Positions 3,192 through 23,043 of a DNA stretch of 36,324 bases are shown here, in pieces (the stretch's first letter is position 1; each line of letters starts with the position of its first letter). Position numbers and translations under genes: made by a program. Below the pieces are notes generated by a model, which had not been told where the DNA came from, ran no database searches, and saw only the letters and a list, made by a program, of their open reading frames with translations. The stretch comes from an uncultured Woeseiaceae bacterium (GTDB lineage: Bacteria; Pseudomonadota; Gammaproteobacteria; Steroidobacterales; Woeseiaceae): assembly GCA_947259145.1 (NCBI GenBank), contig CAMYLB010000301.1, forward strand, positions 1 through 36,324, given 5' to 3'.

Positions 3192-6035
3192 CTAGATTGC
3201 CTGCAATGCTGTGCGGAGCTTACGTTCCTTGCCGTGAGATTCTATCAGGCGGCGAAAATCCTTGAGCGGCAGCGGTTTGCTGTACAGGTAGCCCTGTCCC
3301 ACGTGTACGCGGTAATTCTTCATGAATGCTTCCTCTGCGCGAGTCTCGATGCCCTCGGCAATGATAGTCTTTTCGAGCTCGTGGGCCATCGTGATGATGG
3401 CACGGCAAATGTTGTTCGCATTCTTGTTGTTGCCGATGGCGCGCACGAATGACTGATCGATCTTGAGATAATCGAACGGTAATTCGGTAAGGTAGCTGAG
3501 AGACGAAAATCCCGTGCCGAAATCATCCATCGCGATCGCAACGCCCCGGTCACGCAAATGTTTCAATGCATCTAAAGCAACGTCTAAGTTATTTGCGATC
3601 GCCGTCTCCGTAATTTCCAGCTTGATCATGCCGGGATTGACATCGTGCCTGGTGAGCGCGTCACTCACCATCGATATCAGTCTATAATCCTGAAGCTGGC
3701 GGCCGGACACGTTGATCGAAATGGTTTTGCAATCGATCCCTTGATCGGCGAAATGCCGAATATCCTGGCATGCCCGGTCCAGTACCCAGTTGCTGATTTC
3801 AAAAATCAGATCAGTCTGCTCGGCGATCGGAATGAATTCGGCTGGCGAAATATCGCCCAGCGTTCGACTTCGCCATCGCAACAGGGCCTCGGCCCCATGC
3901 AACTTGCCATCGGACAGGTCAAACTGCGGTTGGTAATGTAATTGCAGTTCCCCCGCTTCGATCGCGGTGTGCAGTCCGCGTTCGAGCGTCAGTCTGCGTC
4001 GGCTCACTTCGTTGAGCTGCTTGCTGAAGTATTCGAACTTGCCGCGTCCAGCGCTCTTTACACGATTGAGGGCAGCGTCCGCGTTTCGAATCAGAACTTC
4101 ATTAACATCGCCATCATCCGGGAATACCGCGATCCCAATGCTGGCACCGATAAAGTGTTCATTACCGTTGGCTTCAAATTTCTGCGCCAGTCGTGACAGG
4201 AGTCTTAACGCAAAATCACCGGCGTCATCGGCAGTCTCAATTTCCGGCATAACTACGGCAAACTCATCATCTCCGAGCCTTGCGACGGTGTATTTCTCCC
4301 GCGCTTCGGCAAGGAGCCGAACTGCAACCCGCCCAAGGATCAGGTCGCCCGTCGAATGACCGAAAAGATCGTTGATCTTCTTGAAGTGATCCAGATCAAG
4401 CAATAACAACGCGCCGGTTTTATTCGAGTGCTGCGACGTGGAAATTGCCTGCCCGAGCCGGTCTTCAAGCAGCGCACGGTTAGGCAATCGGGTCAGGTTG
4501 TCATAGTGTGTTTTCTGGTAGAGGGCCTGCTCTCTTTCGGCGTTCGACACGCCTACTGCGATGCGTTGCGAGAGATTCTCGCAATGCCGGATAGCCGTGG
4601 CAATTGCTGCATCCTTGTTTCTTGTTCCGAGTACGATGACCCCACGTGAATGGGCATCGAACGAGACCGGTATGTCACGGAAATGCCGGAAGCCGGCATT
4701 TTCGTAGTGCTTGCGCAACGGCGCTGCCAGATCTTGCCGCCCATACCAGTCGTCGCCCATGTTCGGCCTGACTCTCTGCGTCAAATGCGGATCGAAAATG
4801 ATCAGTTCGTTTTCGAGCTGCTGATTTTTCCAGACTAACAGTTTCGCCCGGGCCGACTCGTCTTCTGTTCGCAGGATAATTGCGCACGGCTGGCCACCGA
4901 GCTGTGTACTTAAGTGTGACAGCACGACTCCACAAATTTCGTCGACCGATGCTAGTAACATTATCAGCCGGTCGACGTCCGACATTGTGCGCAACAGGCT
5001 CAATTGCTGACTCAAACTGGTTGCCATGTCGTTGAAAGCATGCCCAAGCTGCTGGAATTCGTCGCCCGTCTGAATATTCACGCGCACGTTGAGGTCGCCA
5101 CCCGCGAATTCTTCAGCCGCATTTTTCAATAGCTGTACAGGAACAAGGTTTTTGTGCACGATCCGGAAACTGAAAAAAGCGATGAGGACCGCGGCCAGCC
5201 CTACGACCAGAGGAAAGACGGCCCGTAACTCTCGCACAATTCCAAATATGTGTTCCCGGTTCACGGTAACGACGACGTCGACAGAATCGAACGCAATCCG
5301 TCCCAAAAACGGTAACTGCCAGAGTGCCGAGAGCATATCAACACCGTCGTTTTGCCATTCAATGAGCGCCGACTTGCTGTCGTCATCCAGATCAGCGATC
5401 CGTAATGTACCTGACTCGCCGGCACCACTGGAGCAAAAGAGCAGCTGTCCGCCGCTCTTGTAAATGCAATATTGAGATTGATGGGGCAGGTATTCTTGCG
5501 GCGCCCATACCGCTCCCGCGGACATACGAAACGCGATAATGCCCGCCGCGTCGTCGTCGCGATCGGCGAGCGTTACAAGCAGCCAGGCGGGTGCGGCAGA
5601 ATCATTGCTTAGAATTAGCTGGCTTCGACTATTGGAAAGCTGAGTCCTATCGATCGCGTTGTCGTCGAAATCCACGAATGCGGTGCCGTGCAGGGGCGTT
5701 ACGCGATTGTCAGGCGCGATTTTCCAGATCGCTTCGAAGTGATTCGTTGATCCACGAATTGTAGCGCGTAGATGTTCAGGGTTTTCGTTTGCGGCGCGCG
5801 CGATCAACTGCGCGGTACCCGATACATCATTCAGGTTTTCGCCGATGCGCATGCCGATAGACTTGGCATTTTCGCGCAAGCTAGCCAATGTTTCTCGCCG
5901 CAATCCCTCAGTAATTTTGGCATAGGACAGGTACGCCATTAGCAACATTGGCAACAGTCCAACCAGCAGGAACAGGCCAAAGATCCGGCGTCGTACATGG
6001 CCGCGAAAGGCGCCAACTCCCGGAATTCGCCGCAT
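3192..6035 (-). CDS. Membrane-anchored HAMP-GGDEF-EAL c-di-GMP signalling protein
   Basis: Two N-terminal TM segments around a periplasmic domain, HAMP-like segment, GGDEF variant RLGDDEF, and complete EAL motifs (EALLRW, NVSGRQL, LEITET, DDFGTGFSS, LKID, AEGIET, GQGY). Confidence 0.93.
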   Translation of the reverse strand: MRRIPGVGAFRGHVRRRIFGLFLLVGLLPMLLMAYLSYAKITEGLRRETLASLRENAKSIGMRIGENLNDVSGTAQLIARAANENPEHLRATIRGSTNHFEAIWKIAPDNRVTPLHGTAFVDFDDNAIDRTQLSNSRSQLILSNDSAAPAWLLVTLADRDDDAAGIIAFRMSAGAVWAPQEYLPHQSQYCIYKSGGQLLFCSSGAGESGTLRIADLDDDSKSALIEWQNDGVDMLSALWQLPFLGRIAFDSVDVVVTVNREHIFGIVRELRAVFPLVVGLAAVLIAFFSFRIVHKNLVPVQLLKNAAEEFAGGDLNVRVNIQTGDEFQQLGHAFNDMATSLSQQLSLLRTMSDVDRLIMLLASVDEICGVVLSHLSTQLGGQPCAIILRTEDESARAKLLVWKNQQLENELIIFDPHLTQRVRPNMGDDWYGRQDLAAPLRKHYENAGFRHFRDIPVSFDAHSRGVIVLGTRNKDAAIATAIRHCENLSQRIAVGVSNAEREQALYQKTHYDNLTRLPNRALLEDRLGQAISTSQHSNKTGALLLLDLDHFKKINDLFGHSTGDLILGRVAVRLLAEAREKYTVARLGDDEFAVVMPEIETADDAGDFALRLLSRLAQKFEANGNEHFIGASIGIAVFPDDGDVNEVLIRNADAALNRVKSAGRGKFEYFSKQLNEVSRRRLTLERGLHTAIEAGELQLHYQPQFDLSDGKLHGAEALLRWRSRTLGDISPAEFIPIAEQTDLIFEISNWVLDRACQDIRHFADQGIDCKTISINVSGRQLQDYRLISMVSDALTRHDVNPGMIKLEITETAIANNLDVALDALKHLRDRGVAIAMDDFGTGFSSLSYLTELPFDYLKIDQSFVRAIGNNKNANNICRAIITMAHELEKTIIAEGIETRAEEAFMKNYRVHVGQGYLYSKPLPLKDFRRLIESHGKERKLRTALQAI

Positions 6036-6038
6036 CGC

Positions 6039-9000
6039 TCAGGCTGTCTTCGTCTGGCTGACCGACCGCGATTGTTCTATTCGTACACAGCCGTCGTCAA
6101 GGAGCCCGTCGAGATTCGACTGTAGCGCCTGATACAGGCTATCCGATGAGCGTTGCCACGATATTCCATGAATGCCGACCCAAGCATTGCGTTCCTGCTT
6201 CGCCCGGTACATCGCAGCGTCAGCCACGCCCAGAACCTGCTCCCAGTTGAGGAGGTCGGTAGCACCGTGTATGAATGGAAAGCTTGCGAATCCGATCGAA
6301 CAGGTCGTTCGAACCACCTGGCCGTTGCCGACTGAGAAAACGGTCTGCGCAATCTGCGCGCGCAGACGTTCAACAAGCCCGCTGGCATCGCTGTGAGTCG
6401 CTTCCCGGCCCACAATCAGGAATTCGTCTCCGCCCCAACGAATCACGATGTCTGACGTGCGGCAAACGGATTGAAGGACATCGCGAACTTGCAGCAGAAC
6501 AAGGTCGCCGGCAAGATGTCCGCAGTTGTCATTGATCGGCTTGAACTTGTCGAGGTCGACCATGATAAAGACCATGTCGTTCTTTTCGATTGACTCTGCA
6601 TACCGCGGATCGTGCTTGCGGCGCACGAGTTCGACGTCTTTAAGAACTTCCTCGAACAGGTAGCGTCGGTTGCGTAATCCAGTGAGCGCATCTGTCAGGC
6701 TCGCCTCGCGCAGTCTGTCGTTAGCATCGTGCAGTTCGGAATTACTGTCCGCGAGTTCGCTGGTTCGGTCGCGGACTTCCGACTCTAGACGTCGGCTGTA
6801 GTCCGCTTCGCGAGCAAGCTTGCGCGCGTGAATTCGATACAGCAGGTACACGGCACCTAGAGCGGCAAGAAAATAGAGGACAAAAGCCCATGGCCTGAAC
6901 CACGGCGGCTGCTCGACATGGACTGCCAGTGCAAGGTCGGATTCACTCCAGACGCCGTCGCTGTTCGCGCCCTTGACATGAAATTCGTAACGACCGCCGG
7001 ACAGGTCGGTGTAGGTTGCGCGCCGGTTGACGCCAGCCTCGACCCAGTCGCGGTCGAATCCTTCAAGCTTGTACGCATAACGATTTAGCGCCGGCGCCGT
7101 GTAGTCGACTGTCGCGAAAGTGAAAGTCACCATGTCGTCCGTATACTCGAGGTCGATATCGGTCAGGGTTTCGAAGGCCACACCCGAATAGGCCGGTTCG
7201 TTGAATTTGCTTATGCCTGTAAGAACAACTCTCGGTGGTTCAGACTCGAACGTGAGGCTGCCTGGATCGAAGGCGTTGAAACCATTGTGACCGCCAAAGA
7301 ACAGCATGCCCTCATCGTCTGCGAAGTAAGCGCCGAAATTGAATTCTTCGCCCTGCAGGCCGTCGCTCAGGTGAAAATTGCGGATATTGCCATTCTCGGG
7401 ATCGTAACGGCTGATGCCATAATTCGTACTTAGCCAGAGCTTGCCTTCTGAATCGGAGAGTATGCCGTAGATCGCTTCATTGGGGAGCCCGTCGCTCTGT
7501 GTGACGGTTTGAAAACTCCCGCCACCGACCTGTCCGTCGTCGTGCGGCACAAAAAGGTTCAGCCCGGAACGTGTGCCCACCCAAAGTCTGCCGGCCCGGT
7601 CGACATGCAGTGAGTAAGCGGCGTTGCCGCTCAAACTGGTGTCGTCTGTCGGATCGTTAAGGTAGTGCACCCAGTCGCCGTCTGAAGTCAGCCGGTTAAG
7701 ACCGCCTCCGCTGGTCGCGACCCAGAGCACGCTGTCGGCATCCTCGATGATTGCAGTCGCATTGGGGTTCGATAACGATGTTGGCACATCCGGTTTATGC
7801 TGGTAATTGACGAAGTCGTTTGTGTCGCGGTCGTAGCGGCTGACACCGCCGCCAAACGTCCCAATCCAGATCGTGCCGTCTTTTGCAGCGTAAAGTGACA
7901 TGATGCCGTTTGCAGGGAGGCTCCGCGGATTACCGGGGTCATGCCTGTAAACCGAAATTTCGCCCGTCGTCGGGTCGATTCGATTCAGACCGCCGTGCAT
8001 CGTTCCGGCCCAGATATGTCCGTCGGTGTCGGTCAGCATCGTCATGACAACGTCGTCGCTGAGCCCGCCCTGGCCGTCTGTGCGTTTTCGAATCTGTGTT
8101 TTCTGTTCGAGTTCCGGGTCGAGTACAAGGATGCCGCTGCCGAAACTGCCGACCCAGAGTTGTCGCTGTTGATCGCGAGTGAATGAAGTAATTTTTGGTG
8201 TGTGATTGTCTTCGTTGCTGTTCGACTTTGGGCGTACGTGACCGAACAACCAAGACCGTGAATTCCACTTGTTGATGCCGCCTGTTTTCGTACCAAACCA
8301 CAGCACACCGCCGGCATCTTCGAATATCGAAATTACATAGCTGTCGCTTAGGCTGGTCGGGTCGGTTGGGTCGTTTCGATAGCGCGTGAACGAGCTGCGC
8401 TCGTCGTTCATCAGGTTGAGGCCATTGTTGGTGCCAATCCATAGGCGCTCGGCCGAGTCCTCGTAAATGACCTCCACTCGGTCACTGGCGAGCGCGCGAG
8501 AATCATCCTCATCATGACGGTATACGTCGAGTTTGCCGTCCGCCTCATTAAATCGCGCGAGGCCGTGCTGCGCCGATCCTATCCACAGGGCGCCGCGGCT
8601 GTCGCGCCGGATAGCCAGGATGCGATCACCGCCGGCAAATTTATTGTCAGAAGTTCCAAGCTGATAGCGGCGTATGTCGCCCGTTTCAGGGTCGAGGCGA
8701 TCGAGCCCTGCGCCCGTACCAATCCAGAGGATACCGTCGGCGTCGAGCCACAGCGCATAAACGCGGTCATCACTCAGCGAAGCCGCATCGCTGTCATCGT
8801 GGCGGTAAACGACGATCTCACCGCTGGCCGGATCCAATCGACTCAGGCCATGCCGCATTGTGCCCACCCAGATCCAGCCGCGCGGATCGGCCAGTACCCG
8901 GCGCAAGTTGTCGTCGATTAATGAATCGGGATTCGCTGGATCATTACGATAAATGTCTCGATCGACCGGATTGTCGTCGTGGTGAACGAGGCCGCCGCCG

Positions 9001-9431
9001 TCGGTCGAAATCCAGAGATCGCCGGTCTCATCCACCGAGATGTCGGTGATGAAATCATTTGACATCGTGTCGAGCTTGCCGCGTCCTCGGCGGTAGACCG
9101 TAAAGTCGTAACCGTCGAAGCGGTTCAGGCCGCTCTCGGTCGCGAACCACATGAATCCTGACGTATCCTGGACGATTCGGTTGACAGCACTTTGTGACAG
9201 TCCGTCGTCGCGATCGTACTGCACGAAGTGCATCGGATGCGATTGCCGGGAAAGTGTCGATGCTTGGGCGGTGGAATGTGTGCCGAGAAGAATGGCCGTC
9301 AGGAGCAGCAGGATCGAGAATGCCGTGGCCTTTGCGGCAGCAGCACACGTGACCATACCAATGCCGTCAGCGCGAAATATTGATGTATTCGCTACCGGGA
9401 GGAGTTGTGGCGTGCTCATGAAGCGTCGCAT
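6039..9431 (-). CDS. Two-component-regulator-propeller (Reg_prop) / Y_Y_Y sensor with GGDEF diguanylate cyclase output
   Basis: About 14 propeller repeats ending in [LI]WxGTxxGGLxRxD-type motifs, Y_Y_Y-like region (YAYKLEGFDRDWVEAGVNRRATYTDLSGGRYEFHVKGAN), one TM, coiled coil, intact RWGGDEF. Confidence 0.94.
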   Translation of the reverse strand: MRRFMSTPQLLPVANTSIFRADGIGMVTCAAAAKATAFSILLLLTAILLGTHSTAQASTLSRQSHPMHFVQYDRDDGLSQSAVNRIVQDTSGFMWFATESGLNRFDGYDFTVYRRGRGKLDTMSNDFITDISVDETGDLWISTDGGGLVHHDDNPVDRDIYRNDPANPDSLIDDNLRRVLADPRGWIWVGTMRHGLSRLDPASGEIVVYRHDDSDAASLSDDRVYALWLDADGILWIGTGAGLDRLDPETGDIRRYQLGTSDNKFAGGDRILAIRRDSRGALWIGSAQHGLARFNEADGKLDVYRHDEDDSRALASDRVEVIYEDSAERLWIGTNNGLNLMNDERSSFTRYRNDPTDPTSLSDSYVISIFEDAGGVLWFGTKTGGINKWNSRSWLFGHVRPKSNSNEDNHTPKITSFTRDQQRQLWVGSFGSGILVLDPELEQKTQIRKRTDGQGGLSDDVVMTMLTDTDGHIWAGTMHGGLNRIDPTTGEISVYRHDPGNPRSLPANGIMSLYAAKDGTIWIGTFGGGVSRYDRDTNDFVNYQHKPDVPTSLSNPNATAIIEDADSVLWVATSGGGLNRLTSDGDWVHYLNDPTDDTSLSGNAAYSLHVDRAGRLWVGTRSGLNLFVPHDDGQVGGGSFQTVTQSDGLPNEAIYGILSDSEGKLWLSTNYGISRYDPENGNIRNFHLSDGLQGEEFNFGAYFADDEGMLFFGGHNGFNAFDPGSLTFESEPPRVVLTGISKFNEPAYSGVAFETLTDIDLEYTDDMVTFTFATVDYTAPALNRYAYKLEGFDRDWVEAGVNRRATYTDLSGGRYEFHVKGANSDGVWSESDLALAVHVEQPPWFRPWAFVLYFLAALGAVYLLYRIHARKLAREADYSRRLESEVRDRTSELADSNSELHDANDRLREASLTDALTGLRNRRYLFEEVLKDVELVRRKHDPRYAESIEKNDMVFIMVDLDKFKPINDNCGHLAGDLVLLQVRDVLQSVCRTSDIVIRWGGDEFLIVGREATHSDASGLVERLRAQIAQTVFSVGNGQVVRTTCSIGFASFPFIHGATDLLNWEQVLGVADAAMYRAKQERNAWVGIHGISWQRSSDSLYQALQSNLDGLLDDGCVRIEQSRSVSQTKTA

Positions 9432-9472: not shown

Positions 9473-11380
9473 TTAGGCGGTCAAAGGGCGTGATTCAGTT
9501 CTCACATCCGAGCCAAATACGCCAGAATCCGTGGCCCGGACGCCTGCCGCGCGGCGAAACTGCTCTTTGACGCCAGGTATTGCAACGCTGAGCATCTCTG
9601 ACGCTGCGACTGGCGGCGAGAAGAAATTACCCTGAAATTCGTCGCAGCCCCAGTTGCGCAGCCGCTGGATCTGGGCACTTGATTCCACGCCGACGGCCGT
9701 GACGGATAAGTCGAGCCTCCTGGCAATAGCGACTATTCCAGCCCCGATCGCATCGGAGCGCCGGTCCCGGCGCGATCCACTGACACGTCGGCGTTCGATT
9801 TTTACGGCATCCAGAGGCAACTCCTCCAGCAGAGCGATAGAGAATGCACCGGTGCCAAACTGGTCGATGACAATTCGCACACCGAGACCCTTGAGCTGAT
9901 GGATTACGTCGAATACTCCCTCGCTCCTGTTCAGCAGATCGCTCTCGCAGACCTCGACCTGTAGTTGTTCTGCAGCGACGGCGTGTTTTGCGAGAGATTC
10001 CTGGATCAGTTCAACCAGGTTTCCGGAAATAAGCTGTGCGTGCGACACGTTAACAGCAATTCGACTCGGTGCGTCGGAGGTTTCGGCCCACTCTGCAGCC
10101 TGACGAACGACCTCTGCGATCACGAATTCGTTAATATCGGCAACCAGGTCGGACCGCTCGGCAATTCGCATGAATTCATCTGGCGAGATCTCACCGGCCT
10201 CTGGATGATTCCATCGCAACAGCGCTTCGGCCGCAACAACGCTGCGACCGTGCCAGTCCATGATGGGCTGGTAAACAAGCGTAAGCTGCCCCCGCTGCAG
10301 TGCGGCATGAAACGTATCCTCGAGCATGAGCGAACGTGCGTGCAGGTTGGTAGAGGCGGCGTCAAAAAACTTGAGGGGAATGTTCTCGGTGCGCGCCTCC
10401 CCGAGCGCCTGCTCGGCGAGACCCAGGAGATTACACGCTGGCGCGCGGTCGTCGATCATGCGTGCCGCTCCCATCGTGATCGACAGGTAGATACTCTGAC
10501 CGTCAATCTCGAACGGGTGCTCAAAGTTACTGCCAATCGCACTTGCAATGCGCTGTATTTCGTTGGCGTTGGTAAGCGAAAGCAACAAGCCAAAGCGGAC
10601 GCCCGCAACGCGGCCTGCGGTTGCGGTCAATGTTGTCGTTTCAGACTCGCTCAGAAGGTCGTTCTTCTCCAGCAGCGCGTGCAAACGCTCTGCGAACTCG
10701 CGCAACACCTGGTTGCCGATTGCGTGGCCTGCGGCGTCGTTGATCAGGTCGAAACGGTCGATGCCGATTACGAGGACGGCCGGGTTGCTGTCTTCTTCGG
10801 AGTCGCCTTTCAGACGTGAAATGTGGCTGACGAATCGTTCTCGTCCGGGTAGGCCGGTTAATGAGTCTATGCCGCGCATCAGGAGTACATGACGTTGTGC
10901 GCTGGTGGCGTCGAGCTTGGCCTCGGTCAGTGCTTTGTGAGCGTGCTCGAGTTCCTGTTGCATATTGTGCGTTGCTGCCGCGCGCATGATCCGTTGCGAA
11001 AAAAGTTGCCAATTGAATGGCTTGCGCAGGATTTCCGCTTGCTCGTGCCTGGCGACCTCATTCATATCGCGTGCCGAATTGCAGAGTACGAAGACTTTCG
11101 CATTGTCGCGGCGCTTTTCGAGGACTAGTTCGTACAGGCGACGGCCCGTAACATCGCGTATGCGGGCGTCAACAATGACGACTGAGGGACGCAGGTCGGC
11201 AATATGTCTCAAGGTATCGTCGACGTTCGCGGCGCTCTTGACGTCAAATCCTGCTCGGGAAAGCCAGCGCTTGCCCCAGGATAGCTGTCTCGAGTTCTTG
11301 GTTACGAGCAGCGCTGTGCCGAGGCTGGCGCTATACAGGTCTGGAGAGACCGCAACATCCTTGTCACGTTCCACGAGCAT
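9473..11380 (-). CDS. Degenerate REC-GGDEF-EAL protein
   Basis: ATG at 11380 preceded by AGGAG. Receiver-like domain (VVIVDARI...LRKPF), GGDEF domain with RFGLLL at the signature, EAL domain with EALLRW but DQFGTG and AVGVE. The ORF track start at 11398 is a TTG. Confidence 0.9.
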   Translation of the reverse strand: MLVERDKDVAVSPDLYSASLGTALLVTKNSRQLSWGKRWLSRAGFDVKSAANVDDTLRHIADLRPSVVIVDARIRDVTGRRLYELVLEKRRDNAKVFVLCNSARDMNEVARHEQAEILRKPFNWQLFSQRIMRAAATHNMQQELEHAHKALTEAKLDATSAQRHVLLMRGIDSLTGLPGRERFVSHISRLKGDSEEDSNPAVLVIGIDRFDLINDAAGHAIGNQVLREFAERLHALLEKNDLLSESETTTLTATAGRVAGVRFGLLLSLTNANEIQRIASAIGSNFEHPFEIDGQSIYLSITMGAARMIDDRAPACNLLGLAEQALGEARTENIPLKFFDAASTNLHARSLMLEDTFHAALQRGQLTLVYQPIMDWHGRSVVAAEALLRWNHPEAGEISPDEFMRIAERSDLVADINEFVIAEVVRQAAEWAETSDAPSRIAVNVSHAQLISGNLVELIQESLAKHAVAAEQLQVEVCESDLLNRSEGVFDVIHQLKGLGVRIVIDQFGTGAFSIALLEELPLDAVKIERRRVSGSRRDRRSDAIGAGIVAIARRLDLSVTAVGVESSAQIQRLRNWGCDEFQGNFFSPPVAASEMLSVAIPGVKEQFRRAAGVRATDSGVFGSDVRTESRPLTA

Positions 11381-11384
11381 CGTC

Positions 11385-13148
11385 TTACTCCTGGTCAACC
11401 CAGGTGTTGATCGACATCGTCTCGGTCAGCCCGTTGGTCCACAGGTAACCATTGGTCCAGAGGTAGCCGTTGGTCCACAGGTAGCCATTCGACCAGAGGT
11501 AGCCGTCCGACCAGAGGTAGCCGTTCGCATCAACTCTGCCGTCCGTCCACAGGTAGCCGTCGGCCCAGAGATAGCCGTTGCTCCAGAGATAGCCATTCGA
11601 CCAAAGATAGCCATTGCTGTCGACGCCACTGTTGCTCCAGAGGTAGCCGTCGAGGCCCATCAGGTAGTAGTTGCCGTTTGCGTCCTGGTTGGCGCGACCA
11701 CCGAAGTGTTTCGTGCCGGCGATATCGGCTTCGATATCGAGACCGTTATTGGCGCAGTCGTGGGTCCAGTCAAACACGGCGTCGTGAGCATTGACCATGC
11801 CCGCGCCCTGCTGAAAAATACTATAAGCAAGATTGCCATTTTCATCCAGAGCGGGGCGCGCACCTTTCATGATCTTGCATTTGACGGCGTCGGGAGAAAT
11901 TCCGGGCTCCATCTGCAGTATCAGTGCCGCGATGCCGCTGACGACAGCGGTTGCCTGCGAGGTACCCGACATCTGGAAGAAATTCGCGCCCAGGTAGAAG
12001 TCCGGGTAATCCGTCGCAATCTTGTCAGTGCCTTCCATCGAGGCCATGATGTGGCCGCCCGGCGCGACGATTTCGGGCTTGACGAAGCCTTCATAGGTCG
12101 GTCCGGCGGCGGAAAATGTGGCCAGGCGATCGTCGCTGCCGACGGCCGGCGTGTAGCTGTCGGTCATGGCGCCGACCGTAATTACGTACGGCACGTTCCC
12201 GGGCACTCCGATCGACTGCGCGTCGGGACCCGAGTTGCCCGCCGATACCACGACCACGATGCCGTCGTTCCACGCCGCCATAACCGCCTGGTTCAGCGGG
12301 TCGTCCCAGTAATGAGACTGCGGCGGTGCGCTCAGCGACATGTTGAGCACTTCAATCTGCAGGGACTGGCGGTTTTCGACGACCCAATCGACGCCGCGAA
12401 TTACGTCGGCATAAGTGCCGCGACCTTCAGCGTCGAAAACCTTCACGGCGACGATTCTTGCCGCCGGAGCGATACCGTTGTACTTGCCGACGTTGGACAG
12501 TTTGCCGCTCGTTGCCACTCCGGCGACGTGCGAGCCGTGACCGCTCTCATCAATATCGATTTCGGCAAAATCTATTTTGCTCTTACCCTTGCCGCCTTCG
12601 ACATACTCATAGTCTATCGTTGCATCGTATACGGCCTTCAAGCGGTCGAAACCATAGCGGTCTTGCGAAATGCCCGGACCCGAATAGATACCGCTGTCGA
12701 CGATAGCTATCGTCACGCCCCAGCCGTCGATGCCCTGGTCGTGCAGCAGGTCTGCATCAACGAGGCTCGGAAATTCCGAGTAGCCATCACCCGGCATTTC
12801 TTCTTCCGAGGGTTCTTCCTCTGGTGGAGGCGATTTCTTGCCACCGCCTTTGCCGGCAGCTGCCACAGCGTTATTGCCGTACAAGCGGCGAACCGCCGGA
12901 TGATTGCGGAGCCGATCGGCCTCGGGCTCAGTCAGATTGACAGCAACAGCGCGAATAATCCCAAGCTCGTGAGTGACCTCGACATCGAACTCACCGACTG
13001 CGGCCAGTACTGCATCGAAGCTCGCACCCTGCACGATGTAGCTCGTGCGGGTCTCGGGTTCAGCCGTGGGGATCGATGCGGCGACGCAAAGAGTTATTGC
13101 GAGCGTTGCGGCGATTACCATTTTCTTCAGCGACGTGAGCGTTGTCAT
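11385..13148 (-). CDS. Secreted subtilisin-like (S8) serine protease with C-terminal GYLW hexapeptide repeats
   Basis: Signal peptide (MTTLTSLKKMVIAATLAITLCVAASIPT), I9-like propeptide, catalytic motifs AIVDSG, GHGSHVAG, GTSQATAVVSG. ATG at 13148 with AGGAA SD. Ten GYLW[STA][ND] repeats at the C-terminus. Confidence 0.95.
   Translation of the reverse strand: MTTLTSLKKMVIAATLAITLCVAASIPTAEPETRTSYIVQGASFDAVLAAVGEFDVEVTHELGIIRAVAVNLTEPEADRLRNHPAVRRLYGNNAVAAAGKGGGKKSPPPEEEPSEEEMPGDGYSEFPSLVDADLLHDQGIDGWGVTIAIVDSGIYSGPGISQDRYGFDRLKAVYDATIDYEYVEGGKGKSKIDFAEIDIDESGHGSHVAGVATSGKLSNVGKYNGIAPAARIVAVKVFDAEGRGTYADVIRGVDWVVENRQSLQIEVLNMSLSAPPQSHYWDDPLNQAVMAAWNDGIVVVVSAGNSGPDAQSIGVPGNVPYVITVGAMTDSYTPAVGSDDRLATFSAAGPTYEGFVKPEIVAPGGHIMASMEGTDKIATDYPDFYLGANFFQMSGTSQATAVVSGIAALILQMEPGISPDAVKCKIMKGARPALDENGNLAYSIFQQGAGMVNAHDAVFDWTHDCANNGLDIEADIAGTKHFGGRANQDANGNYYLMGLDGYLWSNSGVDSNGYLWSNGYLWSNGYLWADGYLWTDGRVDANGYLWSDGYLWSNGYLWTNGYLWTNGYLWTNGLTETMSINTWVDQE
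11431..11664. repeat. 18-bp tandem repeat array (13 units in register) inside the subtilase CDS, encoding 6-aa GYLW[S/T/A][N/D] units
   Basis: Units such as ccattggtccagaggtag, ccgttggtccacaggtag, ccattcgaccagaggtag. Ten units encode GYLWxx; two in-register units encode GVDSNG- and RVDANG-type variants. Confidence 0.95.
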
Positions 13149-13198
13149 TTGTCTGTTCCTGTTTGTGTCATCCCGGGCCGACATGTTCTTTGGTAAAG

Positions 13199-13225: not shown

Positions 13226-14976
13226 TCAAATCGCCCTGTAGAGGTGGAAACGGGTGCGTATTGTGTCGAGGTCGACAACCTTGGGGTCGGATGCGGCGCC
13301 AAGGTGCGGTGCTATAAAATCCGGAACATTCTCGGGCCGCAACGGTTCGGTGATGACAAAACCCTGCAATGCGTGGCAGCCCTGATCGCGCAGGAAATCG
13401 ATTTGCTCGGTGTTCTCGACGCCTTCGGCAATGACGGTAAGATTCATGCTGATCGCAAGCGCTATAATCGCCGAACAAACCGAACGTTCGTCGTCATCGA
13501 ACTGACATCGGTCGACAAATGTACGGTCGATCTTGATCGCATTAACCGGCAGTCGTATCAGACGACGCAGCGAGGAATGACCTGCGCCGAAATCATCGAC
13601 GACCAGGCCCACGCCAATGTTTCCCAGTTTCTCGAGAATGAGGTCGGCGTCGGCCGCGCGCATCAGCGTTCTTCAGGCGGCAGCCCGGAAGTTTGCAGGG
13701 CGTTAAGGATTACGGCATCAAGACCGTCACGAGTAAACTCGGCTTCGGAAAGATTGACTGACACGGGCGGCATGCCGGTAATGTCGCGGCGCCAACTGGC
13801 CGCTTGCAGGCATGCCGACTCGAGGATCCATTCGCCGAGCGGCCGCATCAAGCCGGTGGCCTCTGCCAACGGGATAACCTCGTCCAGCGCAACCATGCCA
13901 CGCAGTGGATGTTCCCAGCGCAGCAGTGCCTCGAGGCCGCCCACGTGACCGGTCTTGAGATCGACTCTCGGCAAGTAATGCAGGCCAAGCTGATCGTTCT
14001 CGAGGGCCCAGGCGAGCTCAGTCTTGCCGTCGAGGCGCTGCAGGGCGCGAAACTTCATCGTCGTGGAATAAAACTCGTAGCCCTGGTCGCTGCGAATTGC
14101 GGCCTCGTCGAGTGCAACGCGCGCGCGCTTTAGCAAGTCGTCGGAGCTGTCGCCGTCGCTCGGGTACAGTGCGATGCCTATCGCAGGCTCAATCGTGAAT
14201 TTGTGCCCTTTATAAGCCAGCGGATTCGCGAACGCTTTGCGAATTCGGTCTGCGACCTGGCCGGCCGCGTCACGACGATCAACGCCGTTCAGCACGACGA
14301 GAAATTCTTCGCTGCCGAGCCGGGCCAAATCCGCAAAATTATCGTCATCCGAACCGGCGCGCCCGGCTCTGTGTTGCGATCTGAGGCAGTCCTCGATACG
14401 TTGCGATGCGATCGAGAGCATCGCGCGACGAACCGGTTTCCCGATCCGCTTCGTCAGGCGCACGAGCTGCTCGAGGCCGACGACCATGACGGCGATGCCA
14501 CGCTCGCGCAGTCTGGCATCGTCGACCGCAGCGTCGAGTAAGGTTGCGGCACCGGGAAGACGAGCGGATACACTGGCGTCGGCCGCTGCCGCCTTCGTGC
14601 CGACGGCAGGAAAACGACGCAGATCACGCAATACCCCCATGACTTTCTTGCGGCCGACGACGATCAAACGCAGTTCGTAATACTGGGAGTCTGGTTTGCC
14701 ATCGATTTCGAATGTGAATGCGACGTCGGCACGGTTACGCAGCGCTTTGCCGATATTCATTTTTATGAGTTGGGCAATCGCGTCAGGCAGGTCGGCTGTG
14801 ATATCCGCGTCGGCCTGTCGGTCGGGGCAGAAATTCGCTGCAGCCGCGGCGCCGGTCACGGTTTCGAGGAGCATGCCTTTGTCGGAGGCTAAAAACGTCC
14901 AGTCCGGCAAGTCGTCGTGCGATGCCAGTTGAGAATCTCTTTTTGTTCCGTCATCCCTCAATGCGATCTGCCTCAC
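13226..14976 (-). pseudogene. GGDEF-EAL protein split by an internal deletion/frameshift in the EAL domain
   Basis: ORF 14976-13663 ends ...SGLPPEER*; ORF 13663-13226 resumes MRAADADLILEKLGNIGVGLVVDDFGAGHSSL...AEGVEN in another frame. The expected LExTE segment is missing. The ORFs overlap at ATGA. Confidence 0.85.
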
Positions 14977-15958: not shown

Positions 15959-17407
15959 CTATGGTGACTGATTTCTTTGTTTCAGCGCCGCCTGAATGCG
16001 AGCAGCGAGGGCCGTTGCTTCAGCAGCAACGCGGTCCGTCTCGATAGTGAGCATCTCATTGTCTTCCATCAGGACCTGTCCATCGACGACTACCGTCGCC
16101 ACGTCCTGTTCGTCGGTGACCCACACGAGGTGCGATACGATGTCATACGTCGGCACGTGATGGACGTCATCAAACACAACCTGGATGAGATCGGCTTTCT
16201 TGCCAACTTCAAGGGAACCGATGCTGTCGCCCAGGCCGATAGCGGTTGCACCGCCGCGGGTTGCCATCGTCAGGACCGTCGTCGCTGACAGCGCTTCGGG
16301 ATCCATGCGATCGACCTTCTGCAACAAGGATGCCAGGCGCATCTCTTCCCAAAGATCGAGGTCATTGTTGCTTGCGGCGCCGTCGGTGCCGATGCCGACA
16401 CGAACTCCCGCCGCGAGCATCTCAGTGATTGGCGCGATCCCGGAGGCGATCTTCATGTTCGACGTCGGGTTATGGATAACGCCGACTTTGCGTTCCACAA
16501 GGATCGGAATTTCTTCCTGCATCGGCCAGACGACATGCGCTGCGATTGTAGGCCCGTCGAAGAAGCCGATCGAGTCAAGCATATTGATACTCGTTGTACC
16601 GTAGGTGTCTTTCGAATATTGCACTTCGAACGGCGACTCCGATAAGTGGATGCTGATCGGCACACCGAACTTCATGGCGGCAGCGCGAGTCGCCGCGAGT
16701 TTGTCTTTATTGAGAGTGTAGTTGGCGTGTGGGCCAAAGATTGGAGTGATGCGATCGTTCTTGCCCTGCCAGCGCTCAATGAAGCCGATGCCCTTCTGAA
16801 TGGAGTCGTCTGCATTCTCGGCATCCGGGCTGCGTTGATCGATGACGGTGGCGGATATCAATGCGCGCATGCCACAGCTGTCGACGACCTCGGCAATGGT
16901 GTCCGGGTAGTAATACATGTCGACAAACGTCGTGGTACCGCCACGAATCATTTCCCAACAGGCAAGTTCGGTACCGACGCGCACAAACTCGGGATCGACA
17001 AACTCGACCTCGGCCGGAAAAATATAATTGTTGAGCCAGTCCATGAGCGCCAGGTCGTCGGCAACACCGCGAAGCAGTGTCATGGCCGCATGCGAATGGC
17101 CGTTAACGAGCCCGGGCATGACAATGCGATGCTCGCCATCGAGCGTTTTTGCGGTGGAATACTCGGCATGAATGTCTGCGGCGGAGCCGATCGCCAGGAT
17201 CAGGCCGTCGTCGATGGCGACGGCACCGTTCTCATAGACAGTACCATCGACATCCATTGTGACGATGTAACTGCCCTCTATGATCAGGTCGATACCAGGA
17301 TGATCCGGCTCAGCAACACCTGGTTCATTTGCCGGCGAACAGGCCGTCAGCGCAAACGCCAACACCCCGGCCAGCAATTCCGCCAGGTGCATCTTTCGAT
17401 AGTCCAT
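15959..17407 (-). CDS. Exported (lipoprotein) amidohydrolase of the MTA/SAH deaminase / TRZ-ATZ family
   Basis: Lipobox LTAC in MDYRKMHLAELLAGVLAFALTACSPAN. Metal motifs NGHSHAAMTLLRG, GPHANYT, ISIHLSE, GTDGAASNNDLDLWEEMR. GAAGG SD upstream of 17407. Confidence 0.88.
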   Translation of the reverse strand: MDYRKMHLAELLAGVLAFALTACSPANEPGVAEPDHPGIDLIIEGSYIVTMDVDGTVYENGAVAIDDGLILAIGSAADIHAEYSTAKTLDGEHRIVMPGLVNGHSHAAMTLLRGVADDLALMDWLNNYIFPAEVEFVDPEFVRVGTELACWEMIRGGTTTFVDMYYYPDTIAEVVDSCGMRALISATVIDQRSPDAENADDSIQKGIGFIERWQGKNDRITPIFGPHANYTLNKDKLAATRAAAMKFGVPISIHLSESPFEVQYSKDTYGTTSINMLDSIGFFDGPTIAAHVVWPMQEEIPILVERKVGVIHNPTSNMKIASGIAPITEMLAAGVRVGIGTDGAASNNDLDLWEEMRLASLLQKVDRMDPEALSATTVLTMATRGGATAIGLGDSIGSLEVGKKADLIQVVFDDVHHVPTYDIVSHLVWVTDEQDVATVVVDGQVLMEDNEMLTIETDRVAAEATALAARIQAALKQRNQSP

Positions 17408-17487
17408 TTTCATCCTTCGATCTTCGAGCTCTGTTGTGTTTACATTGTAACGCGATGGAAGGCGCCGTAAACCTATCGGCATCAAAC

Positions 17488-18484
17488 ATGACTGAAAATA
17501 ACTTTATGAATTATAAGGAAATACCCAAGGCAGAGCTGCATTGCCACCTGGAAGATCGGCAATACGCTGGGAATGGACGTTCCACAGGATCCTGCGGTAT
17601 TTCATGAAGAATGGCTATTGTCCAGGCCGCTGGAAAATCTCGAGGTCGCGCTCAAGCGCTTTGTCGATATCCAGAAAGTCTGGTGTTCGGAGGAGGTCAT
17701 CGAGCGGCTGGCTTTTGAGGCTGGCGAAGATGCAGTGGAGCAGGGCATTCGCATCATGGAATTTCGCTATGCGCCCGATTTTATCGCCTTCGACAAGCCA
17801 CACTTGTCGTTTGAGCGGATACACGCGGCCATTGTTCGTGGTCTCGATCGGGCAGCTCATGCCGACCTTGCTGTCGGGCTGATCGGAATCGTGCAAAAGA
17901 CTCTCTCACTTAAAGACGCTGCAAGAACGATCGACTTCATCGTCGAGAATGCCGATACCTTTGTGGCGCTCGACTTCGCTGACAAAGACACCCATGACCT
18001 CCGCAGTTATGCCCCGCTCGTAGACAAAGTGCGACGTGCGGGGTTGCACTTGACGACGCACGCCGGCGAAGACCCGGGCCCCCGGTCACCAAACGAGGTC
18101 CGTGAAGCAATCGAAGTGCTGCAGGCTGAACGGATCGGCCATGGCATTCATATTATTCACGACGACGATGTCATGGCGCTTGTACGAGCAAACGATGTTG
18201 CGCTCGAGGTCTGTCCGACCAGCAACTGGTTGACGAGTGCCGTCCCGACAACGGCCGACCATCCGATTCGCCGCTTGATGGAGGAGGAAATCGCGGTGAC
18301 GATCAATTCGGACGATCCGGGGCTTTTTGGTATCGATCTGTGCCACGAGTACGAAATCCTGCATCGCGAACATGCCTATACGGCCGAGGAGTTCGATCAC
18401 TGCAATGACATCGCCGCTGCGCACAGTTTTTTGCCTTTGAAAGAACGGCAACGAGTCTGGCCAAGAACGATCGGTGGGGTCTGA
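17488..18484 (+). pseudogene. Adenosine deaminase, interrupted by an N-terminal deletion/frameshift
   Basis: Start MTENNFMNYKEIPKAELHCHLE (HxH motif) in one frame, then IGNTLGMDVPQDPAVFHEEW...THAGEDPGP...ERIGHGI...CPTSNW...INSDDPGLFG in another. About 10 aa missing between HLE and IGNTLG. Confidence 0.87.
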
Positions 18485-18493
18485 GCAAAAAAA

Positions 18494-18517
18494 AGAGCCG
18501 GTCGAAAGACCGGCTCT
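18494..18517 (-). terminator. Intrinsic terminator for the minus-strand TonB receptor
   Basis: AGAGCCGGTC-GAAA-GACCGGCTCT, a perfect 10-bp stem. On the minus strand it is followed by a T-run (A-run at 18487-18494 on the plus strand). Confidence 0.85.
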
Positions 18518-18542
18518 CAAGGCAAAGTGGTTCCGTTCGTCG

Positions 18543-20693
18543 CTAGAAATCCTTGACGAAGCGCAGCCCGAATTCACTCGCGTCATTGCTTAAAATATCG
18601 AGTATGTAGTCGCCAAGGTTGATAAGTGCCTGTGTGTAGCGCTCGTCAGTCGCATTCCGACCGTAGATTCCAGCCGTCCAGCTTTCATCGGCCGACGTGT
18701 ACGAGAAATCAAAATTGATGATGTCCCGACTGGGGATTTGCGTCATCCGACCAGGATCGTCGCTGGGCTCGCCCCACATTTCGTCACGATACGAGTAGTC
18801 CGCGCGGAGTACCACTTCGCCGCCACTCGCCATCGGGATATGCAATTCCGGGCTTATCGTCCAGGTTAGTTCCGGCGTCAGCGGCGCTACGGGTTTTGTG
18901 GTGCCCTGCTGGTCGACGTCAACATCGATGTAGCCGAGTGTCGCCTGGAAAAGGAATGTGTCTGTCAAGTACGCCGTACTTTCCCATTCAAAGCCAGTCG
19001 AAGTCTGGTCCACGATCAGGCTAACGGTCGAGAAGCCACCACCACTCGTCGAGCTGACCTGGTAGGGCAGGTCCGAGTACTCAGTGTAGAACACTGCGGC
19101 ACTCATTTGCAGACGTTCCAAAGGTTGACCCTTGATGCCGACCTCGTAGTTGACTGCCGTAATATTGTCCGCGGGAGCGGAGAAGCAGTCAGGCCAGGTA
19201 CCAAAACAGAACGGGCGCGGATTGAACTGTCCGGACTGGTAGCCGCTCTGGACGCTGCCATAGACATTCAGTCCATTGTTCAGCGAATAGCTTGCTGACA
19301 AGTCCCAGCTGATATCGTCGTAGTCAACGCTCTTAAGCGACCGGGGCAGGCCATCAGAGATTTGGGCGGCTGCGTCCTTGTCGTCCTCGGAGTAGCGAAG
19401 TCCGCCGGAGAGGCGCAGATTGTCCGAGATATCGTAGCCGACGTTCGCAAAGATGCCAATGCTATCCACTTCCTGATCGAGCGTGAAATCATCTGCCGGA
19501 ACCCCCCCACAAAGAAAGCAGCCCTCGGCCTGCAGGTTGCCGCCGTCCTCGGTGAAATAATAAAGGCCGCTGACGAAGTCCCAATCGCCGTAGTCACCAT
19601 TGATCTGCACCTCGATCGAGGTCTGGTCGGCGTCGCCAACCTCCGGGAACGTCAGAACATTGTCCGCGAAGCTGTCATCGTCGAGTCCGGTCTTGTATTC
19701 GGAGCTGCGAGTGCTTGCGATGATCTTGGTCGCGATGTTGTCGTTGATATCCCACTCGGCGGTCACCGCCAGGCCACTCGCCTTGTGTGAGACGCGGACC
19801 TGGTCAGACTGTGTCGTGGCGTTGTCGTAGGGGTCGGCCGCCGTATCTGAGTTGCGGTAGCCCAGCGAATACAGGAGTCCGTTAGGTAATTCATCGATCA
19901 GCGTCGTATAGGGCCGTAAGCCACCGTCGCCATCAGCACCATCGGCGGTGATGGTCAACGAAAAATCGTCTCTCGGCTCCCAGTAAAATGCGAGCCGCGC
20001 AAACGATTCATGCATCTCGCCAACGCGCATACCAGCGTTCCGCAGATTGATGAAATCACCGACGCCGTCGCGGTTCTTGAAACCGCCAGACAATGAAATT
20101 GCGGCGTTGTCGCTGAGTTCCGTGTCACCGTAAAAGGTGCCGTTAAGACGCTCGCGGCTACCGACTTCAATGCCAACACGCGCACCTGGATCCGATCCCG
20201 GTCTCTTGGTAATGATATTGATGGCGCCGCCGATGGAGTTTCGTCCATACAGCGTACCCTGCGGCCCACGCAGCACCTCGAGGCGCTCTATGTTTGGCAA
20301 GTTCCAGTTCTGTCCGATCTGGCGACCGAGGTACACGCCGTCGATATAAACACTGACGCCGGGATCGGTCGTAATCAGATGATCCTGCAGACCGATACCG
20401 CGGATGAACGGATTGGACGAGGATACCTGTCCGCCGGAGAACGACGTCACGTTCATATTCGGTACGAATTTGCCAATGTCGACCAAATTTGAGATGCCTT
20501 GTTGAGCGAGCTTGTCACCTTGAAATGCGCTGACAGCGACCGGCACCTCATAGATGCTCTCTGCCCGTTTCGTGGCCGTGACAGTGATCTCTTCGAACAG
20601 ACTCGTGTCGTCCTGTGCAAACGCAGCCGGAGATGCGCCAAGCAACATTCCGCTCGCGGCAAGTACGATTACAGTAATCCCGTTTTTCTTCAT
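18543..20693 (-). CDS. TonB-dependent outer-membrane receptor
   Basis: Signal peptide, plug domain (ITVTATKRAESIYEVPVAVSAF, VEVLRGPQGTLYGRNSIGGAINIITKRP-type), beta-barrel, C-terminal ...LRFVKDF. Confidence 0.95.
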   Translation of the reverse strand: MKKNGITVIVLAASGMLLGASPAAFAQDDTSLFEEITVTATKRAESIYEVPVAVSAFQGDKLAQQGISNLVDIGKFVPNMNVTSFSGGQVSSSNPFIRGIGLQDHLITTDPGVSVYIDGVYLGRQIGQNWNLPNIERLEVLRGPQGTLYGRNSIGGAINIITKRPGSDPGARVGIEVGSRERLNGTFYGDTELSDNAAISLSGGFKNRDGVGDFINLRNAGMRVGEMHESFARLAFYWEPRDDFSLTITADGADGDGGLRPYTTLIDELPNGLLYSLGYRNSDTAADPYDNATTQSDQVRVSHKASGLAVTAEWDINDNIATKIIASTRSSEYKTGLDDDSFADNVLTFPEVGDADQTSIEVQINGDYGDWDFVSGLYYFTEDGGNLQAEGCFLCGGVPADDFTLDQEVDSIGIFANVGYDISDNLRLSGGLRYSEDDKDAAAQISDGLPRSLKSVDYDDISWDLSASYSLNNGLNVYGSVQSGYQSGQFNPRPFCFGTWPDCFSAPADNITAVNYEVGIKGQPLERLQMSAAVFYTEYSDLPYQVSSTSGGGFSTVSLIVDQTSTGFEWESTAYLTDTFLFQATLGYIDVDVDQQGTTKPVAPLTPELTWTISPELHIPMASGGEVVLRADYSYRDEMWGEPSDDPGRMTQIPSRDIINFDFSYTSADESWTAGIYGRNATDERYTQALINLGDYILDILSNDASEFGLRFVKDF

Positions 20694-20833
20694 TATGATC
20701 TTCCCCTGGAGAGGTTTCGCCGTTGTTAATGGACTCGATGATGATCGCGGCCCTTATCGGATGAATTATAGCTGATCGTATGACTTGTCTGCCCCAGTAA
20801 CGTGCTCTAAGGTACTGAAGTGCGAAAAATGAC

Positions 20834-21721
20834 ATGAAAAATACAGCCGAAATACCGTCCTACGCCGCCCCGACGGGCGGGCGACTCTCGGATGACATGC
20901 TCGCCGACTTCAAAGACGCCGGCGTGCTAGCGCTGCGCGACTTTGCCAGTGTTGATGCCTGCGACGCACTGCGCGCGCGGGCGGCGAAACTGGTGGAAGC
21001 GTTTGACCCCGAGGAAGTACGCAGCGTCTTTTCAACAACGGAGCAGACACAGCTTAACGACGACTATTTCATCGAATCCGGTGACAAAATTCGTTTTTTT
21101 CTGGAAAAGGAAGCAATTGACGAAAACGGCAGGCTGCGGCAGAAAAAGGAGCACAGTCTTAACAAGATGGGGCATGCCATGCATGACCTGGATCCGGTAT
21201 TTGATCGGTTTTCGCGGACTCCCGAGCTCGCAGAGGTCGTAAAACGAATCGGCTTTGTGGAGCCGGCCATCGTGCAGTCGATGTATATTTTCAAGCCACC
21301 AGGTATCGGTGGCGAAGTCGCGTGTCATCAGGACTCCACCTACATCTACACCGAACCGGAGTCCTGTGTTGGCTTCTGGTTCGCGCTTGAAGATGCAACG
21401 CTTGAGAACGGCTGCATGCAGTTCATACCCGGCGGGCACAAGTTGCCGCTTAAGAAACGCAATTACCGCGGTGCCAACGGCAAGCTCGTCACGGAGACGC
21501 TCGACGACTCACCCTGGCCCGAGGAGAAAAAACGGCCGGCTGAAGCGCCTGCCGGCACGCTGGTTATTTTCGATGGCCGTGCGCCGCACCTGAGCGCCGC
21601 GAATCGTTCGTCCAAATCACGCCATGCCTACACTCTGCACGTCATCGACCAGCAATGCCGCTACCCGGCTGAAAACTGGCTGCAACGCCGTGCCGATCTG
21701 CCGCTGCGCGGATTCAACTAG
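20834..21721 (+). CDS. Phytanoyl-CoA dioxygenase (PhyH) family Fe(II)/2-oxoglutarate oxygenase
   Basis: HxD in ACHQDSTYIYTEP, GFWFALEDATLENGCMQFIPGGHK, C-terminal SRHAYTLHVID. Confidence 0.9.
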   Translation: MKNTAEIPSYAAPTGGRLSDDMLADFKDAGVLALRDFASVDACDALRARAAKLVEAFDPEEVRSVFSTTEQTQLNDDYFIESGDKIRFFLEKEAIDENGRLRQKKEHSLNKMGHAMHDLDPVFDRFSRTPELAEVVKRIGFVEPAIVQSMYIFKPPGIGGEVACHQDSTYIYTEPESCVGFWFALEDATLENGCMQFIPGGHKLPLKKRNYRGANGKLVTETLDDSPWPEEKKRPAEAPAGTLVIFDGRAPHLSAANRSSKSRHAYTLHVIDQQCRYPAENWLQRRADLPLRGFN

Positions 21722-21729
21722 GGAAGACG

Positions 21730-23043
21730 ATGTTATTCACCGATGTAATCCGCAAGAAGCGTGATGGTGGCGAGCTGTCTGAGAATGAAATCCAGTTCTT
21801 CGTCGACGGGCTTGCCGACAACAGCCTGCCCGCAGAGCAGGTGTCTTCGCTCGCGATGGCGATATACCTGAACTCCATGAGCTTTGAGGAGGCCGGCAAG
21901 CTGACGCTCGCAATGGCGGCTTCGGGCACGGTCCTTGACTGGTCGAAAGAAGCCCTCGATGGTCCCGTGATCGACAAGCACTCGACGGGCGGCGTCGGCG
22001 ATAAAGTCAGCTTCATGCTGGCACCAATCGCGGCCGCTTGCGGTTGCTATGTGCCGATGATATCCGGGCGTGGCCTCGGGCATACCGGCGGCACCACGGA
22101 CAAGGCCGAGTGCATACCGGGGTACAACGCGACGCCCGACTTCGACACGTTTCGCAGAGTAGTCAAAGAGGTTGGCTGTGCAATTATCGGCCAGACGGCT
22201 GATCTTGCGCCGGCTGACAGGCGCTTCTATTCCATCCGTGATGTGACGGGTACGGTTGAATCCGTGCCGCTGATCACGGCGTCGATACTGTCGAAGAAGA
22301 TCGCCGCTGGTCTGCAGGGGCTGGTCATGGACGTGAAGGTCGGCAATGGCGCGTTCATGGAGACGCCGGAACGAGCGCGGGAACTCGCGAAGAGCGTCAT
22401 CAAGACTGCCGCGAAAGCGGGTCTGACAACACATGCATTGATTACCGACATGAACGAGGTGCTGGGCACTACGGCTGGCAACGCACTCGAAATCGAGGAA
22501 TCGGTCTTGTATTTGCGCAACGAGCGACGCGACGCTCGACTCGACGACGTGACCTTGTCTCTGTGCGCCGAGATGCTGGTTGTCGGCGGCATCGAAACGG
22601 ATCGCGACAAGGCGCGCGATCTGTGTGCCGAGTCGGTAACGAGTGGCCGCGCGGCCGAGACATTCGGCCGGATGGTGGCCGCACTCGGCGGGCCATCCGA
22701 CTTTGTTGATCACTACGACAAATACCTCGCGAAGGCGCCGATCATACGGCCGGTGCATGCCTCCGGTATTGTGACGGCGATCGATACACGTGGTATCGGC
22801 AACGCGATTATCGAGCTCGGCGGTGGCCGGCGCAGTGTCGGTGAGAATCTGGATCTCTCTGTCGGTTTCGAGCACATTGCCGCTATCGACACCAAAGTGG
22901 ATGAGGCAACTCCGCTGGCCGTCATTCACGCCGCCAGCGAGGCCGATGCGGTGGTAGCGGAACGCAATCTGCGTGCGGCGGTAACGCTGGATGACGCGAT
23001 GCACGCCGAGCGGCCCGTGGTACTGGAGATTCTGGCCGGCTGA
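21730..23043 (+). CDS. deoA: Thymidine phosphorylase
   Basis: 437 aa: DKHSTGGVGDKVS, SGRGLGHTGGTTDKAECIPG, VPLITASILSKKIAAGL, MDVKVGNGAFM. Colinear with DeoA from memory. Confidence 0.95.
   Translation: MLFTDVIRKKRDGGELSENEIQFFVDGLADNSLPAEQVSSLAMAIYLNSMSFEEAGKLTLAMAASGTVLDWSKEALDGPVIDKHSTGGVGDKVSFMLAPIAAACGCYVPMISGRGLGHTGGTTDKAECIPGYNATPDFDTFRRVVKEVGCAIIGQTADLAPADRRFYSIRDVTGTVESVPLITASILSKKIAAGLQGLVMDVKVGNGAFMETPERARELAKSVIKTAAKAGLTTHALITDMNEVLGTTAGNALEIEESVLYLRNERRDARLDDVTLSLCAEMLVVGGIETDRDKARDLCAESVTSGRAAETFGRMVAALGGPSDFVDHYDKYLAKAPIIRPVHASGIVTAIDTRGIGNAIIELGGGRRSVGENLDLSVGFEHIAAIDTKVDEATPLAVIHAASEADAVVAERNLRAAVTLDDAMHAERPVVLEILAG

Follow-up and report, generated by a model that had tools for sequence, protein, structure and literature searches.

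The coupling of secreted proteolysis to c-di-GMP decisions in bacteria is an open question, and the locus described here raises it in a particular form. In a stretch of 36,324 nucleotides from an uncultured Woeseiaceae bacterium (contig CAMYLB010000301.1, here called the window), a gene for a subtilisin-like peptidase ends in a string of tryptophan-containing hexapeptides and is followed on the same strand by genes for a c-di-GMP turnover protein and a propeller sensor (Table 1). What might such a tail do, and does the protease belong with its neighbours?

Table 1. Positions of the subtilase, its parts, and the neighbouring genes in the window.
Feature	Position	Strand	Basis
S8 (subtilisin-like) peptidase, 587 aa, with W-repeat tail	11385..13148	-	Translation; Pfam; motifs; fold match
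Probable Sec signal peptide, residues 1-28	13065..13148	-	Hydrophobic segment at residues 4-22; cleavage site inferred
N-terminal prodomain-like domain, residues 35-97	12858..13046	-	Confident AlphaFold2 alpha/beta domain; pro-subtilisin structures among top fold matches
S8 catalytic domain, residues 144-441	11826..12719	-	Pfam
Conserved pre-repeat module, CANxGLDIxADLxGTxHFGGRAN..YYLMGLD	11649..11756	-	Alignments
Array of twelve 18-bp units, ten GYLW[STA][ND] and two VDxN interrupters, residues 501-572	11433..11648	-	Translation; Tandem Repeats Finder
Conserved extreme C-terminus LTETMSINTWVDQE (consensus xNxWVxQE)	11388..11432	-	Kept in relatives across phyla
Receiver-GGDEF-EAL protein (c-di-GMP turnover), directly downstream of subtilase	9473..11380	-	Pfam EAL 5e-64, GGDEF 4e-25, Response_reg 7e-7 (just below cut-off)
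Reg_prop/Y_Y_Y propeller sensor with GGDEF output	6039..9431	-	Pfam Reg_prop 1.8e-55, Y_Y_Y 4.3e-16, GGDEF 6.7e-34
HAMP-GGDEF-EAL protein, next in same gene run	3192..6035	-	Pfam
GGDEF-EAL gene upstream of subtilase, split within EAL domain (ORFs 13663-14976 and 13226-13663)	13226..14976	-	Pfam EAL, profile positions 4-115 of 236 only

The subtilase and its tandem repeat

Domain score and catalytic motifs together identify the gene product as an S8 peptidase with predicted proteolytic activity. The Peptidase_S8 domain (PF00082) is matched at E 2.5e-49, with 168.6 bits against a curated Pfam cut-off of 21.8, and the catalytic Asp, His, and Ser motifs are all found (DSG at residue 151, HGSH at 204, and GTSQ at 395). 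The coding sequence likely begins at the ATG at 13148, with a hydrophobic, signal-like segment following it, and the start assigned by the ORF tool is likely too long; this N-terminal segment makes export likely. Modelling with AlphaFold2 and 32 relatives produced good models of the prodomain and catalytic domain, for which the top Foldseek match is pro-Tk-SP (3afg). Antisense to most of the gene runs a 743-codon open frame (10965-13196, plus strand), which looks like a by-product of codon bias.

An earlier note, made from the sequence, had described a secreted subtilase with an in-register tandem tail of six-residue units. This description is borne out, with export as a prediction, by the S8 domain, the signal-like segment, and an 18-bp period that Tandem Repeats Finder recovered independently (11434-11616, 76% matches). 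The translation also contains the ten GYLW[STA][ND] units and two VD[SA]N hexapeptides that had been reported, and the interrupters, SGVDSN (11613-11630) and GRVDAN (11523-11540), are in register with the rest. A small correction applies to the extent of the array, which has 12 units over 11433-11648 where 13 over 11431-11664 had been counted. At least two GYLW motifs arose in none of 2000 shuffles of the window protein, and no other locus in the genome of the window matches the GYLW codon pattern in consecutive units.

Distribution of tailed subtilases

Three GY[FLIMV]Wx[ND] units in a row were sought across 84,980 species genomes, and the 89 stretches recovered are distributed among Woeseiaceae, other Gammaproteobacteria (Colwellia, Thalassomonas, Pseudomaricurvus, Steroidobacteraceae, and Lysobacterales), Acidobacteriota, Gemmatimonadota, and Chloroflexi. 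Because many of the carriers are metagenome bins, an isolated odd placement, such as that in an archaeal bin, should be distrusted. The search for GYLW[ST][ND]-type arrays on other S8 peptidases, suggested in the earlier note, was successful: 85 of the 96 array ORFs match the S8 profile, 10 run off the end of a contig, and one (L139) looks like a remnant left by an internal deletion. All assignable arrays among these 96 ORFs are on S8 peptidases, and none was seen on carbohydrate enzymes or adhesins. The idea of a mobile binding module carried by other enzymes was rejected on the same ground. The remnant itself (L139:1528-1872) is a 115-aa ORF in which the start of a subtilase catalytic domain is fused directly to a W-repeat tail, as if the middle had been deleted, and could be a misassembly.

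In a maximum-likelihood tree of 56 catalytic domains, all 45 tailed S8 peptidases fall within one clade (support 95/93) that holds no tail-less member; the 11 tail-less S8 peptidases in the tree were hand-chosen from the same order, and the single-clade statement is therefore limited to this sample. Two subfamilies can be distinguished. Type I proteins have the pre-repeat module CANxGLDI.. and end in xNxWVxQE, and type II proteins have the pre-module ..LWGD.. and end in ..LxDD. One Thalassomonas locus (L182) contains five consecutive tailed subtilase genes, whose units are GSIWNE, GYLWAD, and GYVWAD; after them come a receiver-GGDEF-sigma54 gene and propeller-GGDEF genes. Contigs often break inside the W-repeat array (for example L112, L122, L123, L124, and L130), and as a result both tails and their linkages are undercounted in short-read genomes.

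Linkage to propeller sensors

The usual gene set around type I genes consists of the subtilase, a (receiver-)GGDEF-EAL gene, and a propeller sensor. It recurs in genomes G012, G027, G029, G051, and G101, and is also found in Acidobacteriota, Thermoanaerobaculales, Steroidobacteraceae, and Thalassomonas; near type II genes the sensor often lies upstream. The sensor in the window is predicted to have transmembrane segments at residues 31-49 and 849-867, with about 800 aa between them outside the cytoplasm.

The association was counted in several sets of genomes, and all of the linkage counts are inflated by one clade's inheritance of an ancestral operon, while the P values, which ignore shared ancestry, are indicative only. 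Across 296 genomes of the order, among the matches listed, which leave out the weakest, a Y_Y_Y sensor is present in 60 of 62 tail-positive genomes versus 26 of 234 tail-negative ones. Among the same listed matches, tail-positive genomes have 121 sensors, of which 60 are encoded no more than 10 kb from a tail gene, compared with 2.5 expected; 58 of the 60 share its strand. The co-occurrence is also seen within the window's genus (26/27 tail-positive versus 6/26 tail-negative, among the genomes listed). In a set of 12 genomes, a tail lies near 16 of 22 Y_Y_Y proteins (0.42 expected), and a Y_Y_Y match lies near 19 of 32 tailed S8 peptidases versus 1 of 36 tail-less ones. This lone exception adjoins a weak, below-cut-off Y_Y_Y match, and the scan gave no propeller match for the protein that carries it. 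Outside that set, 15 genomes from Acidobacteriota, Gemmatimonadota, Colwellia, Thalassomonas, and others have 14 of 47 sensors near a tail (0.79 expected), a count that leaves out a sixteenth genome, Algicola, which has 95 Y_Y_Y matches and a pair within 10 kb.

Pairing is not universal. Among the 32 tailed S8 peptidases, 13 have no sensor within 10 kb, and no sensor was found in the stretch read around the closest two orthologues of the window gene (L039 and L040), so the link between protease and sensor need not act in cis. In one Anaerolineae genome (G310) the tail is matched four times and Y_Y_Y not at all. There is also a second group of Y_Y_Y proteins, approximately 1370-1413 aa long (G029:C33, G010:C9, G012:C80, G030:C7, G060:C5, and G022:C30), to which no tail match lies closer than 10 kb, which indicates that the linkage concerns only some propeller sensors.

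The linked sensors have a Reg_prop ectodomain in common, and nearly all have Y_Y_Y, while their outputs vary: GGDEF is the usual one, and others are HisKA-HATPase-receiver, with or without Hpt, and PAS-sigma54. A constant ectodomain joined to varying outputs suggests an extracytoplasmic site for the functional link to the protease.

Two further features of the window concern its other genes. The split GGDEF-EAL gene, whose two ORFs overlap, has an intact relative (L047:1856-3649, 82% identity over 434 residues), and the split may be either an assembly error or a real break. The block at 15959-23043, which encodes an amidohydrolase, an adenosine deaminase, a TonB receptor, a PhyH-type dioxygenase, and a pyrimidine nucleoside phosphorylase, possibly serves nucleoside salvage.

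A proposed protease-sensor circuit

We give about an even chance to the view that the tailed, exported subtilases partner Reg_prop/Y_Y_Y propeller sensors outside the cytoplasm, the two being encoded together with a (receiver-)GGDEF-EAL protein as a conserved cassette. The single clade, the restriction of the array to S8 proteins, the gene linkage, the co-occurrence across genomes, and the varied sensor outputs are observed; that the protease is exported, what the sensor reads, and what the tail does are what we infer. The exported protease would act on protein outside the cytoplasm, and the propeller ectodomain would read either the released peptides or the protease itself; the sensor would then change c-di-GMP through its GGDEF domain and the GGDEF-EAL partners, or, in other lineages, act through a phosphorelay or sigma-54 transcription. 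Sensing of peptides or protease is proposed by analogy with the HTCS of Bacteroides, in which the same ectodomain families bind the products of neighbouring enzymes. Most likely the tail is a flexible, multivalent string of xLW motifs by which the protease is held at its work site, docked either on the sensor or on a surface or substrate, and it is in one of these ways that it probably positions the enzyme. If instead the sensor regulates the protease, the linkage would be accounted for and the tail need have no part in it.

A further extension of the circuit, which we think unlikely, makes the tail the signal. Whole tailed subtilases, or tail fragments freed by proteolysis, would then dock on the linked sensor at its propeller ectodomain, and the cell would measure its own extracytoplasmic proteolysis and convert the result to c-di-GMP. 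If true, this would be a protease-to-second-messenger circuit common to several phyla, with the tail as a new kind of multivalent ligand.

Fold and possible roles of the tail

The earlier note recognized no named family for the tail, and this stands after searches with the single sequence and a profile against Pfam, NCBIfam, and PDB, in which all matches were sub-threshold or due to chance. The best Pfam match to the window tail, WXXGXW (PF12779), scores 13.3 bits against a cut-off of 18 (E 0.089), the single NCBIfam match came from one member (E 0.026), and the best PDB match has E 0.75. Like the tail, PF12779 is a short repeat of Trp and Gly, and it is weakly matched by 9 of 21 tails; the spacing in the tail, W-x-x-G-x-x-W, is one residue longer. 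The GxLWxGT blade motif in the sensor's own propeller also resembles GYLW, a likeness kept only as a lead, since each motif is short and rich in tryptophan.

Structure prediction of the C-terminus, which the earlier note had proposed as a check on a possible beta-solenoid, did not bear that fold out. The tail has a pLDDT of 21-47 in the AlphaFold2 model of the full protein and of 41 when modelled alone with 21 relatives; values as low as these in both runs are no proof of disorder, and they allow no fold to be claimed. The tail-only model has long strands with turns approximately every 18 residues, which at a pLDDT near 41 is not evidence. A beta-solenoid or other stable fold was rejected as neither run gave a confident regular coil. 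In other clade members the W motifs are kept at a period of about 10-12 residues, some with GYLWTDGGGINAN-type units, and the sensor-linked relatives L179, L181, L194, and L195 have LW, IW, or MW motifs at longer spacing. A period that varies within the clade is not easily compatible with a regular solenoid, and the comparison of tails favours a flexible multivalent string over a fixed one.

A string of this type could hold the protease in place with no part in signalling. In this reading, which we regard as possible yet rather doubtful, the tail is a substrate- or surface-binding module that uses its aromatic repeats to retain the protease on glycans, on particles, or at the outer surface, and the sensor regulates only attachment and expression of the protease. 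Attachment is commonly under c-di-GMP control, in keeping with such a role. Multivalent tryptophan arrays are typical of weak aromatic binding, and tryptophan is present in 100% of the counted units of 102 arrays, as the way of counting dictates, and in almost all units of the alignments. The reported use of both protein and polysaccharide by Woeseiaceae, which have many peptidases (PMC12175321), also fits with binding. However, usual binding modules occur on carbohydrate enzymes or adhesins, whereas the array was seen only on S8 peptidases, and it is matched by no binding module in Pfam or PDB.

It is distinctly unlikely that the repeats and the xNxWVxQE end form a C-terminal sorting signal or propeptide, needed for export, surface anchoring, or maturation and later removed. 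Such a role would agree with the retention of the extreme C-terminus even where the repeats differ or degenerate, and with the best fold match, Tk-SP, being a protease made as a pro-form; but type II proteins share the repeats and have the other end, and so many identical motifs exceed what sorting needs.

Age and homogenization of the tail

The earlier note took high DNA identity between units as a sign of copy-number variation among strains. The identity is in fact moderate among the GYLW units (mean 0.80, range 0.67-0.94), and with tail length constant in near relatives it does not indicate such variation. Comparison of repeat number, as the note had advised, divides the claim: the tails of 15 clade members, that of the window included, are all exactly 123 residues long, and only across wider distances does the number of units vary, from 4 to 18. 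These 15 tails are 55-89% identical to that of the window and have the second interrupter at the same slot despite differing unit sequences. Synonymous codons in the window's units (row L059) match at 0.54, where the codon usage of the gene itself predicts 0.44; this excess is slight, and the units are therefore not fresh duplicates. Recent slippage in the window gene was rejected on the basis of the synonymous differences and the conserved length.

Unit identity is 0.82 within arrays versus 0.59 between them, each array having been homogenized to its own variant (GYTWSQ, GYLWNN, GYQWTD, GLIWND, GYVWAD, and others). The low synonymous excess, constant length, and fixed interrupter slot argue that the tail is old and under selection, and not a product of fresh slippage, although homogenization over long times does occur. 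A neutral low-complexity expansion by replication slippage is highly improbable and already disfavoured: this homogenization, and an excess of synonymous identity in some arrays, speak for it, but the tail is kept in every sampled clade member, length and interrupter slot do not change in the near relatives, tryptophan is never lost from counted units, and units of equal protein sequence differ at synonymous sites.

Comparison with known systems

The component families are each known, and the tail and the combination of genes appear to be undescribed; no description of the tail or of the protease-sensor pairing was found in the open-access literature, a scope outside which most subscription papers fall. 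We know of no ligands for most Reg_prop/Y_Y_Y sensors outside gut Bacteroides. In this respect, a conserved, testable protease-sensor pair would provide a candidate input for hundreds of sensors, notably in Woeseiaceae, an abundant family of marine sediments, and the recognizable tail would serve as a sequence tag for locating such loci.

The window protein resembles pro-Tk-SP and other subtilisin-type S8 peptidases (PDB 3afg and 9ues), its top sequence and fold matches, in having a prodomain, a catalytic domain, and the Asp/His/Ser motifs. Tk-SP has folded C-terminal domains after its catalytic domain, whereas the window protein has a tryptophan hexapeptide string with no PDB match. PorZ, like the cassette sensor, has a double propeller, and it acts together with a protease-like enzyme, one that processes C-terminal domains. 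It differs as a surface protein without transmembrane signalling, and the hosts of the cassette are mostly Proteobacteria; no similarity of the GYLW tail to the T9SS C-terminal domain was detected.

The closest parallel concerns gene arrangement. In Bacteroides, the HTCS are large sensors with a periplasmic Reg_prop double propeller and Y_Y_Y, encoded beside degradative enzymes whose oligosaccharide products they detect (PMC3243724). The window sensor likewise has a Reg_prop double propeller and Y_Y_Y between two transmembrane segments, and tail loci resemble HTCS/PUL loci in that the sensor gene adjoins a gene for a degradative enzyme, within 10 kb and nearly always on the same strand. Unlike an HTCS, the window sensor ends in GGDEF and has no histidine-kinase phosphorelay in one polypeptide, although some of its relatives have HisKA-HATPase-receiver. 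The enzyme also differs, being a tailed protease, as does the usual output, GGDEF with GGDEF-EAL partners. On this likeness, which is one of genes and in which product sensing is putative, we propose that the cassette is a protein-degrading counterpart of the HTCS/PUL loci of Bacteroides.
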